A DNA stretch of 45,610 nt. It comes from Alphaproteobacteria bacterium (GTDB lineage: Bacteria; Pseudomonadota; Alphaproteobacteria; CAAHEQ01; UBA3637). The stretch spans positions 1 through 45,610 of the forward strand of contig JAGCYU010000016.1 of the NCBI GenBank assembly GCA_017960645.1, read 5' to 3'. Of this stretch, positions 41,973-45,610 are shown one piece after another; position 1 is the first letter of the stretch; every line of letters begins with the position of its first letter. The translations under genes were made by a program, and so were the position numbers. The notes beneath the pieces were generated by a model. The model had not been told where the DNA came from. It saw only the letters and a program-made list of their open reading frames with translations, and searched no databases.

Positions 41973-43265
41973 TTATTTTTTCTTAGGTGTCAAAACGGAC
42001 ATACCGCCCATATAAGGTCGCAATACTTTAGGAATTAGCACAGATCCGTCTGCTTGTAAATTATTTTCCAAAAATGCAATCAACATACGTGGCGGTGCAA
42101 CAACCGTATTATTCAAAGTGTATGGGAAATACTTTTTACCATCCTTAGCTTGCACACGAATTTTCAAACGGCGTGCTTGAGCATCCCCTAATGTGGAACA
42201 TGACCCCACTTCAAAATACTTCTTTTGCCGAGGAGACCATGCTTCAACATCGCAAGATTTTACTTTTAAATCAGCCAAATCGCCCGAGCAACAGTCCAAT
42301 GTTCTGACAGGAATATCCATAGAACGAAAGAAATCAACAGTATTTTGCCATAATTTATTATACCAATTCATACTGTCCTCTGGCTTACACAAAACAATCA
42401 TTTCTTGTTTTTCAAACTGATGAATACGGTAAACACCGCGCTCTTCAATACCATGAGCGCCCTTTTCTTTTCTGAAGCAAGGAGAATAGCTGGTCAACGT
42501 ATATGGCAATTCATCCTCTGGCAAAATCTGGTCTATAAACTTACCAATCATAGAATGCTCAGAAGTTCCGATAAGGTATAAATCCTCGCCTTCAATTTTA
42601 TACATCATTGCATCCATTTCAGCAAAGCTCATCACGCCTTCGACAACCTGCCCTCGAATCATGAAAGGCGGTACATAATACGTAAAACCACGATCTATCA
42701 TAAAATCACGTGCATAGGACAAGATGGCTGAATGCAACCTGGCGATATCGCCTTTTAGATAATAAAAGCCATTACCGGCCACACGCCGTGCATTATCTAA
42801 ATCAATTCCATCCAAAGCTTCCATAATATCTGTATGATAAGGCACTTCAAAATCAGGCACCTTTGGCTCCCCAAACTTTTCCAGCTCAACGTTTTCACTG
42901 TCATCCTTTCCCACGGGAACAGAAGCATCAATGATATTAGGAATCTGCATCATACGTTTTTTGATTTCTTCAGCCAACTTTTCTTGTTCAGCTTCTAAGG
43001 CAACAATTTCATCTCCGATTTGTTGGCTTTCTTTTTTAATAGCCTCAGCATCATCCTTTTTCCCCTGCCCCATCAACGCACCGATCTGCTTGGACAAAGT
43101 CGTTCTTTTGGCCCGCAAAGCTTCAACTTGAGTAATGGCTGCACGATTTTGTTTGTCTAACTCTCTTACCTCATCTACCAAAGGCAATTTAGCTTCTTGA
43201 AACTTTTTCTTAATATTTTCACGCACGATATCGGGATTTTCCCGTATCAATTTAATATCTATCAT
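41973..43265 (-). CDS. serS: Seryl-tRNA synthetase (divergent motif 3)
   Basis: This 430-residue class II enzyme charges tRNA-Ser. The N-terminal coiled-coil arm spans about 30-105. Motif 2 is FRKEKGAHGIEERGVYRIHQ. Motif 3 reads TLNNTVVAPPRMLIAFLENN, where E. coli has TLNGSGLAVGRTLVALMENY; the ATP-binding Arg is kept. The LKVKSCDVEAWSPRQKKYFE segment also differs from the common bacterial type, so it belongs to a less common serS branch. It is the last gene of the SPOR-protease-serS set, nine bases after the protease gene. Confidence 0.96.
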   Translation of the reverse strand: MIDIKLIRENPDIVRENIKKKFQEAKLPLVDEVRELDKQNRAAITQVEALRAKRTTLSKQIGALMGQGKKDDAEAIKKESQQIGDEIVALEAEQEKLAEEIKKRMMQIPNIIDASVPVGKDDSENVELEKFGEPKVPDFEVPYHTDIMEALDGIDLDNARRVAGNGFYYLKGDIARLHSAILSYARDFMIDRGFTYYVPPFMIRGQVVEGVMSFAEMDAMMYKIEGEDLYLIGTSEHSMIGKFIDQILPEDELPYTLTSYSPCFRKEKGAHGIEERGVYRIHQFEKQEMIVLCKPEDSMNWYNKLWQNTVDFFRSMDIPVRTLDCCSGDLADLKVKSCDVEAWSPRQKKYFEVGSCSTLGDAQARRLKIRVQAKDGKKYFPYTLNNTVVAPPRMLIAFLENNLQADGSVLIPKVLRPYMGGMSVLTPKKK

Positions 43266-43274
43266 CTTTGCTCC

Positions 43275-43934
43275 TTATAAAAACACACTAATAAAGCGCA
43301 TAAACATCGGATATAAAGTACCAACGAATAAATTGATAATATCTATACCCAACACTGGTAGGACGAATATTACACCAAATAAAATAAAAAGTCCATATTT
43401 TTCTGTTTGGTGATATTGGATGGCCCATTTGTTTGGCAACAGGCTTTCCAAAATACGTCCGCCATCCATAGGCAAAATTGGCAACAGATTAAAACAGGCT
43501 AAAATAATGGACAGGCTGATCCCATTTCTTAAATTAGCCACAATCCAAGTCGTTAAAGACCATTGCATTGGCATAACTGCTATCACTACCCGACCAACTA
43601 AAACAAATGCTATTGCCAATAAAACATTTGCCAAAGGACCTGCCACCGCAACCAATCCCATGTCACGTTTGGGATTATGCAACCTTGAAAAATCAACAGG
43701 CACAGGCTTTGCCCATCCAAATAACATATGCGAACCGGACAATAACAATAAACAAGGCACAATAATACTGCCAACAATATCGATATGTTTTTCGGGATTT
43801 AAGGTTAATCGTCCCATTAACCAAGCCGTTTTATCACCTAGTTTATACGCCACATATCCATGTGCAATTTCATGTAAAATTACACACAAAAACAAAGGGA
43901 TAAGCCAAGTTGTTAAAGAATAAATAAAAGTCAT
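43275..43934 (-). CDS. Site-2-protease family (M50) membrane metalloprotease
   Basis: This 219-residue protein has about five to six helices. The zinc motif HEIAH (21-25) lies in the first helix, and the third ligand Asp157 is in NLLPILPMDGGR (149-160). The GWAKPVPVDFSRLHNPKRDM segment is typical of the short M50B group without PDZ domains. It would cut substrates within the membrane; the target is unknown. The 4-nt overlap with the SPOR-domain gene upstream suggests joint expression. Confidence 0.93.
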   Translation of the reverse strand: MTFIYSLTTWLIPLFLCVILHEIAHGYVAYKLGDKTAWLMGRLTLNPEKHIDIVGSIIVPCLLLLSGSHMLFGWAKPVPVDFSRLHNPKRDMGLVAVAGPLANVLLAIAFVLVGRVVIAVMPMQWSLTTWIVANLRNGISLSIILACFNLLPILPMDGGRILESLLPNKWAIQYHQTEKYGLFILFGVIFVLPVLGIDIINLFVGTLYPMFMRFISVFL

Positions 43935-44863
43935 TTATCTGCCTTTACGGGGATACAATCCTGCTTCTTCTTTTTTAACTTATCACATAAATTCAACACC
44001 ATTTCTTTTGTGGTAAATTCCCCGACTTGCAAGCGATAGAAAGTTCCTTTTCCTGGGATTTTGACAGGCACAATTTGATAAGGCATATCCGATAACAAGG
44101 CATTATTCTTTTTTAAAATCCCTTTCCAGGCACTTTCAACCTTGCCTTTATTGGATGAAGATAGCAACTGAGCACGCCACAGTTCTTTAGGAGTTGTAAC
44201 CACGGGCTTTTCCTGTGGTTTGGCTTCAACCTTGATAACGGTTTTTTCTTCTTTTTGTACAGACACCTTTTGTACAGGCTGAACAGGAACTTCCTCTTGA
44301 ACAACTGGTCCCTCAACCACTTCTTCAGGCACCACCGACATAACGGCCTCGGTCGCGTCTTCTACCTCTTGTGGCACTGGTGGCAATATTTCTTCAGGCG
44401 TCAAAATCTGTTCTACTGGCGGAGCAACGGGCTGTTCTGGTTCAGGGAACAACTTTTCTACAACCTCTGCTTTATGAGCCGAAGTACGATTATAGGCCAC
44501 TTTATCCGTCCCAGAAATTTGCAAACCGCCTGGATTTTCCGGCCGAACTTTTACAGGGGTCGGCGTTGGTGCAATCACAACGATTTCTTGAGTATTATCC
44601 GATGGCGCATAAAAATAAAAGAATCCCCCTACTCCTGCCAACAAAACTAAAGCTAATCCGGACAAAGCCCAAACCAATAAATTAGATTCTTTTTTTTCTT
44701 CTGTTACTTGAGGACGAAATTGGCTCAAATACTTTGGAAAATCCAACTCAGAATTCTCTTTTGTTTGATCTTGAATATCCTTAACATCGGCGTTTTCCGC
44801 CAGATTAGCCTGGCGTTCTGCCACACTTTCCGAAAAAGCTTTAATTTTATCAAATTCTTCCAT
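43931..44863 (-). CDS. SPOR-domain cell-envelope protein
   Basis: This 310-residue bitopic protein has a cytoplasmic N-terminus (1-60), one helix (about 62-86), a long Pro/Val/Glu-rich periplasmic linker (about 90-225) and a C-terminal SPOR domain (about 228-305: WRAQLLSSSNKGKVESAWKG and YRLQVGEFTTKEMVLNLC). SPOR domains bind denuded glycan strands and target proteins to the division septum. It is the first gene of the protease-serS unit, with a good promoter upstream. A role in division or cell-wall remodelling is likely. Confidence 0.9.
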   Translation of the reverse strand: MEEFDKIKAFSESVAERQANLAENADVKDIQDQTKENSELDFPKYLSQFRPQVTEEKKESNLLVWALSGLALVLLAGVGGFFYFYAPSDNTQEIVVIAPTPTPVKVRPENPGGLQISGTDKVAYNRTSAHKAEVVEKLFPEPEQPVAPPVEQILTPEEILPPVPQEVEDATEAVMSVVPEEVVEGPVVQEEVPVQPVQKVSVQKEEKTVIKVEAKPQEKPVVTTPKELWRAQLLSSSNKGKVESAWKGILKKNNALLSDMPYQIVPVKIPGKGTFYRLQVGEFTTKEMVLNLCDKLKKKKQDCIPVKADK

Positions 44864-44990: not shown

Positions 44991-45077
44991 GCGGATATGG
45001 CGGAACTGGTAGACGCAACGGACTTAAAATCCGTTGGAGGCAACTCCGTGCCAGTTCGATTCTGGCTATCCGCACCA
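44991..45077 (+). tRNA. tRNA-Leu (anticodon TAA), CCA encoded
   Basis: The 87-nt tRNA has acceptor stem GCGGATA/TATCCGC and anticodon stem ACGGA/TCCGT around loop CTTAAAA (anticodon TAA). The long variable arm TGGAGGCAACTCC is typical of Leu. The T-arm is GCCAG TTCGATT CTGGC, and ACCA is encoded at the end. An integrase-like gene starts 134 nt downstream, so its 3' end is a candidate attachment site. Confidence 0.97.
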
Positions 45078-45086
45078 ATTAAAAAA

Positions 45087-45108
45087 GCTTGAAAAATCAA
45101 GCATTTTA
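45087..45108 (+). terminator. Terminator after tRNA-Leu (first hairpin)
   Basis: The stem GCTTGA/TCAAGC (45087-45092/45097-45102) has an AAAA loop and is followed by ATTTT. Confidence 0.65.
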
Positions 45109-45112
45109 AATC

Positions 45113-45146
45113 AAGGTCAAGGTTTTATCCTTGGCCTTTTTTGTTT
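45113..45146 (+). terminator. Second, stronger terminator after tRNA-Leu
   Basis: The 10-bp stem AAGGTCAAGG/CCTTGGCCTT (45113-45122/45129-45138, one G-T pair) has a 6-nt loop and is followed by T-rich sequence. Confidence 0.85.
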
Positions 45147-45211
45147 TTGAAAAACACTTGTGTATCAACGGTTTATCCTATTTTTATTCAATTTGAACGA
45201 AAGGAAAAAAT

Positions 45212-45610
45212 ATGGTAAAAAACTGTGTTGCAAAGTGGGATGCGCACCAATTTTCTGCACCAATACGTTTATGGTTGCGAAATCGTGTATTTTATAGTAT
45301 AATGGAGCTCCCTCGTGTGAATGGGAAAAGAAGATACCATCGAATTTCTTTGCATACGACCAATTATTATGAAGCGAGGTCATTAATGAACGAACAGCAA
45401 GAATTACTTAATAATATCAATGAATTGCGCCGATTGTACAAACAATTAAGTTTTGCTGATTCTACTGGCGTTGATTTCCCGTTCTTTGATGATTCTCCAT
45501 CACATGATTTACCAATTGGAAATTTGGGCCTTGGCAATTCGTCATTTCTGCGGAAAATATCCAAGTATAACAGCAAAAACCTTTTAGAACGGATTTGGGG
45601 ATTGTTTAAA
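45212..45610 (+). CDS. Probable tyrosine-type integrase, N-terminal part (cut by right edge)
   Basis: The frame starting at ATG 45212, with an AAAGGAA site, stays open for 133 codons to the end of the window. The N-terminal half has the pattern of the arm-binding region of phage/island integrases: LWLRNRVFYSIMELPRVNG, then KRRYHRISLHTTNYYEARSL, meaning an aromatic strand, a basic KRR turn, a SLxT strand and an A-containing helix. The catalytic R-H-R-Y domain would lie beyond the window, so the call rests on the N-terminus and on the position just after a tRNA gene, a classic integration site. The region from 45147 to 45211 holds no other gene. Confidence 0.68.
   Translation, partial: MVKNCVAKWDAHQFSAPIRLWLRNRVFYSIMELPRVNGKRRYHRISLHTTNYYEARSLMNEQQELLNNINELRRLYKQLSFADSTGVDFPFFDDSPSHDLPIGNLGLGNSSFLRKISKYNSKNLLERIWGLFK

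Follow-up and report, generated by a model that had tools for sequence, protein, structure and literature searches.

The window, a stretch of 45,610 nucleotides, is contig C8 in the genome of an uncultured gut bacterium, an assembly of 32 contigs and 1.14 Mb. Its right end is very probably the attL side of an integrative element, since decayed, which a tyrosine integrase inserted into tRNA-Leu(UAA) at its 3′ end. The left edge lies at the tRNA end, the integrase gene is truncated, and the order of the genes that follow is common to related elements. The boundary is genuine and the element at this tRNA is dead, its kind, the tRNA-targeted integrative element, being well known. At this site the value of the finding is mainly one of annotation.

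The tRNA-Leu(UAA) gene and the left edge

The integration target was located on the forward strand at 44991–45077, where ARAGORN gave a tRNA-Leu(taa) with exactly these limits and Rfam gave a match to RF00005 (62 bits, E 4.3e-12). It was the sole tRNA-Leu(UAA) found in the genome. Two terminator-like hairpins follow on the same strand at 45087–45102 and 45113–45138, the second with a T tail. Both lie inside the element, and the first has the same sequence in an element from another genus. Terminator-like sites numbered five in the stretch, compared to 0.4 expected from shuffles. A reading frame that starts at 45212, 135 bp past the tRNA, stays open over 133 aa to the end of the window. These searches together bear out the arrangement described in the original prediction, a tRNA-Leu with two terminators followed by a frame that leaves the window.

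The left edge was examined by comparison with an element that occupies tRNA-Leu(UAA) in another genus (G012, a metagenome-assembled genome from roe deer abomasum). Identity was about 50% upstream of the tRNA and 85% in the tRNA, and rose to 181 of 183 bases over 45069–45251, position 45069 being the ninth base from the tRNA 3′ end. Because of this jump the edge of the element was placed in the last tRNA bases. The attL core corresponds to the tRNA 3′ end at 45061–45077 (forward strand), its length being taken from intact relatives, in which the core shared with the displaced fragment measures 17 bp (G029) or 19 bp (G001 and G006). The core of about 38 bp at 45040–45077 that had been expected is too long, given these lengths and an identity between genera that begins at 45069. 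In an intact element at tRNA-Leu(UAA) the repeat expected distally would be TCTGGCTATCCGCACCA. Near-repeats of the tRNA 3′ end about 165–185 bp past the tRNA (11 bp in G001) were considered as a possible att core within the integrase gene, and were dropped as a family feature because they are absent from most members.

On the other side of the tRNA, serS and the genes for an M50 peptidase and a SPOR-domain protein occupy 41973–44863 on the reverse strand, in synteny with relatives. At least nine relatives, belonging to seven genera, have the SPOR and M50 peptidase genes next to tRNA-Leu(UAA), so that the proposed core chromosome to the left of the tRNA holds for the immediate flank. No clean empty site could be aligned, the sequence past tRNA-Leu(UAA) differing among the relatives examined. 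Both the switch in identity between genera and the placement of the relatives at tRNA genes confirm the boundary as the edge at which an integrative element adjoins the tRNA.

Decay of the element behind tRNA-Leu(UAA)

The 133-aa fragment encoded at 45212–45610 (forward strand) gave no integrase profile in Pfam, the best match being DUF6538 below the cut-off (E 0.061), and so its assignment was not decidable from the window. The fragment is 52% identical to an intact 540-aa integrase on contig C31 of the same genome, which matches the Pfam family Phage_integrase (5e-14). It was on this basis identified as the N-terminus of a tyrosine integrase, as its appearance had suggested.

Contig C24 of the same assembly begins with the same 141 bases that end the window (45470–45610, forward strand), and a search of the genome found this overlap in these two contigs only. 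Short identical overlaps between contig ends are what k-mer assemblers leave at branches. The main caveat is that the continuation into C24 depends on this one 141-bp overlap between two contig ends in one draft assembly. Along the joined sequence, identity to the G012 element past 45251 was 71% over 45252–45361, then 100% over 364 bases (45362–45725), and then dropped. This mosaic within the integrase gene suggests either that integrase alleles have recombined or that the assembly crossed over at this point. The 141-bp overlap falls within the 364-bp stretch, where an assembler could cross over.

The joined frame encodes 364 aa and ends with LFTGSRANAAITLQ, followed by a TAA stop directly past box I. 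The box I motif (TGSRANAA) is retained with its arginine, and HxxR, H/W and the tyrosine are absent. Intact relatives of about 475–564 aa go on to HSFRK, GWEG and YSN, and both the C31 sibling and most relatives have the full catalytic set R, HxxR, GW and Y. As the stop follows box I and the relatives are longer, the gene was classified as a pseudogene that lacks most of the catalytic domain. The R...HxxR...H/W...Y set of an active tyrosine integrase is thus reduced in the tRNA-Leu copy to a single residue, and of the R-H-R-Y residues sought downstream only the box I arginine is present. Closure of the frame without a catalytic domain had been named beforehand as evidence against a genomic island boundary, and for this copy it is what was found.

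Beyond the integrase, C24 runs collinear with the G029 element, which occupies the same tRNA, through a C5 methyltransferase, Rep, Fic and DUF3768. The order of integrase, C5 methyltransferase, Rep-like gene and DUF3768 behind a tRNA places the copy in the family of G029_C1 and G000_C31. Relative to G029, about 1.4 kb is absent between integrase box I and the start of the methyltransferase and about 1.2 kb between the methyltransferase and Rep. The two deletions cut the integrase, C5 methyltransferase and Rep genes, while Fic and DUF3768 are kept; the p96 gene is absent. The remnant is about 3.7 kb long, has no right att site, and stops abruptly past DUF3768 at a gene fragment which, from a reading of its sequence, we take to be MBOAT-like. 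This fragment has no match in Pfam, and a longer copy of it is present on contig C29. A 230-aa gene beyond the end of the remnant has no relative in 24 other genomes. Host synteny on the right flank could not be used, since this gene is without relatives and the MBOAT-like fragment is a partial copy of the C29 gene.

No attR for the tRNA-Leu copy was found elsewhere in the genome assembly, either as a 16-bp match with up to two mismatches or as a 26-bp match with up to three, although it could be in unassembled sequence. The direct repeat of the tRNA 3′ end predicted downstream is therefore missing from the genome at these thresholds, which was a second outcome named as adverse for this site. 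A third, the absence of mobile genes downstream, is contradicted by the mobile-element genes that follow in C24. Of the proposal that a mobile element with cargo begins here, the boundary and the integrase stand; a working element with cargo is not supported, given the stop at 364 aa, the missing attR and the two deletions.

These observations are consistent with a history in which a tyrosine integrase would have driven insertion into the 3′ end of tRNA-Leu(UAA), with the incoming element, judging from its relatives, bringing its own copy of the tRNA end and leaving the tRNA gene whole. After insertion the element very probably eroded in place. Deletions took out the C-terminal catalytic half of the integrase, the greater part of both the methyltransferase and the Rep gene, and all that had lain to the right of DUF3768, attR included; the remnant can no longer excise by itself. 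We infer both the catalysis of tRNA-directed integration by this integrase family and the order of the losses.

Target tRNAs of the family and alternative explanations

At 15 of 19 loci from other genomes a whole tRNA gene was found 131–161 bp upstream of the integrase gene on the same strand, with the identities Leu(UAA), Leu(UAG), Gly(CCC), Gly(GCC) and Gly(TCC). A further two loci begin at a contig end inside the 3′ part of a tRNA, one of them tRNA-Lys. One locus could not be evaluated and one has no tRNA, so that 17 of the 18 evaluable members lie just behind a tRNA 3′ end. Direct repeats representing attR were found 14.2 kb downstream in G029 (17 bp), 13.9 kb downstream in G001 (19 bp), 17.6 kb downstream in G006 (19 bp) and 7.0 kb downstream at L109 (18 bp). 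Control repeats did not exceed 13 bp at nine tRNA-Leu sites without the integrase family, or 11 bp in the opposite orientation and in shuffles. The remaining members gave no tRNA-end repeat within the 2–23 kb of downstream sequence covered, and attR is accordingly established for four members only.

In a tree of the integrases, members labelled Leu and members labelled Gly are each scattered, and well-supported branches force at least three and at least four label changes, which makes switching of the target between tRNAs likely. It is an evenly balanced question whether the family to which the relic belongs is an undescribed one, made up of 7–18 kb integrative elements of gut Alphaproteobacteria, with an integrase that switched several times between tRNA-Leu, tRNA-Gly and tRNA-Lys, a core of HUH-like Rep and C5 methyltransferase, and exchangeable defence and envelope cargo. 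A literature search of limited scope found no description of the element family.

Three other explanations of the window end were weighed against a decayed insertion. It is unlikely that the element at tRNA-Leu(UAA) is intact, with C24 chimeric or a strain variant and the real continuation unassembled. The contig does break exactly in the stretch that is 100% common to the other genus, and G010 contigs also break inside tRNA-Leu and tRNA-Lys, as expected for mixed populations at att sites; however, C24 keeps the reading frame of C8 together with the gene order of the G029 element, and the 141-bp overlap is restricted to these two contigs. The genome is also estimated to be 99.45% complete, and contains no other attR-like repeat and no further integrase of the same family besides that on C31. 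A chance placement of an unrelated pseudogene beside the tRNA is barely credible: it would suit an N-terminal fragment that by itself matches no integrase profile, but not the 17 of 18 evaluable members that lie directly behind a tRNA or the matching attR in relatives, and it is already contradicted by an identity between genera that begins at the tRNA end.

A prophage remnant, as opposed to an integrative element or satellite free of phage, was also considered and is very unlikely. The gene that favours it, a Mu-F-like head protein with a lysozyme-like tail on the same contig (L006:8197–9063), lies outside the remnant, beyond tRNA-Asp, tRNA-Gln, L31 and inositol monophosphatase. No structural or packaging gene was identified in the remnant or in the profiled proteins of the bounded relatives, capsid, portal and terminase genes being among those missing from the latter. 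A phage origin was rejected, there being no relative in viral contigs and a single weak phage match.

Two further observations concern the target and the integrase gene. In G018 and G022 (L087 and L089) tRNA-Leu(UAA) is also flanked, in convergent orientation, by an unrelated integrase family, indicating that this tRNA is an integration hot spot. At the start of the integrase gene (L041:10255–10305 and similar) there are TGTGATGCA direct repeats and an ATCACAC...GTGTGAT inverted repeat, which are perhaps arm-type or operator sites.

Comparison with known systems and cargo of the relatives

Tyrosine-integrase elements in tRNA genes with a displaced fragment are well established and have been catalogued (Islander, PMC4383910), and the window element is one more, decayed, case of this known tRNA-targeted insertion. 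Islander calls for an integrase gene next to a tRNA gene, for a tRNA 3′ fragment displaced downstream without a change of orientation, and for a candidate length of 2–200 kb from tRNA to fragment. As in the Islander tDNA islands, the integrase gene adjoins the tRNA, the insertion is at the tRNA 3′ end, and the intact relatives carry the displaced fragment, likewise with its orientation unchanged, at their far end. The window copy has the tRNA and an adjacent integrase gene, though a broken one; unlike those islands, it has neither a working integrase nor the displaced fragment that is present in G029, G001, G006 and L109, and so is a relic that would not pass the Islander filters. The remnant of about 3.7 kb compares with lengths of 7.0, 13.9, 14.2 and 17.6 kb in the relatives.

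Integration hot spots at tRNA genes have been described in Alphaproteobacteria such as Sinorhizobium meliloti (PMC11476347), where likewise different elements re-use tRNA genes and the att sites are tRNA 3′ ends. The present case differs in its small gut genomes, in an integrase family that is not common to known phages, and in a shorter core, of 17–19 bp, the length reported in one strain for tRNA-Lys being 49 bp. Integrative mobilizable elements and phage satellites resemble the family in their bounded size of 7–18 kb, the integrase at one end, the replication gene and the defence cargo, but in the present family neither a relaxase nor a coupling protein was identified, nor any gene for packaging or capsid. 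Small gut alphaproteobacterial genomes appear to be shaped by a recurrent tRNA-targeting family that moves restriction-modification, Fic and envelope-modifying genes, and the family offers natural integrases with mapped 17–19 bp attachment sites at several tRNA genes.

The intact sibling in the same genome is located behind tRNA-Lys(UUU) on C31 (L007:1–11848) and leaves the contig at the contig start. It contains the 540-aa integrase, a C5 methyltransferase, a Rep-like gene, DUF3768 and a type III restriction-modification pair. No attR for this copy, which runs off the contig, was found elsewhere in the genome. The cargo of the G029 element consists of type IIG-like restriction-modification genes and a resolvase, and that of the G001 element of a DUF5906-kind protein and polyol-phosphate genes. 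The G006 element, bounded by attL and attR (G006:C66; L042:196–1836, L095:16274–19695), carries an EptA-type phosphoethanolamine transferase, adjacent membrane proteins and a two-component system.

Both an HxH and a Y..K motif occur in the Rep-like protein. It shows a weak Pfam resemblance to HUH endonucleases that is below the cut-off (2.4e-5), and its structural model (pLDDT 72.7) gave weak fold matches to the AAV and circovirus Rep proteins (E 0.03 and above). No canonical relaxase was found in the elements examined. A conserved protein of 96–98 aa is encoded beside DUF3768 in five fuller members examined (L007:3711–4001 and relatives), the G029 copy of which has no match in Pfam. One copy of the element lies on a contig labelled Christensenella (Bacillota; L114), with a Rep that shares 97% identity with its counterpart in the alphaproteobacterial G029 element, which reflects either a binning error or distant transfer.
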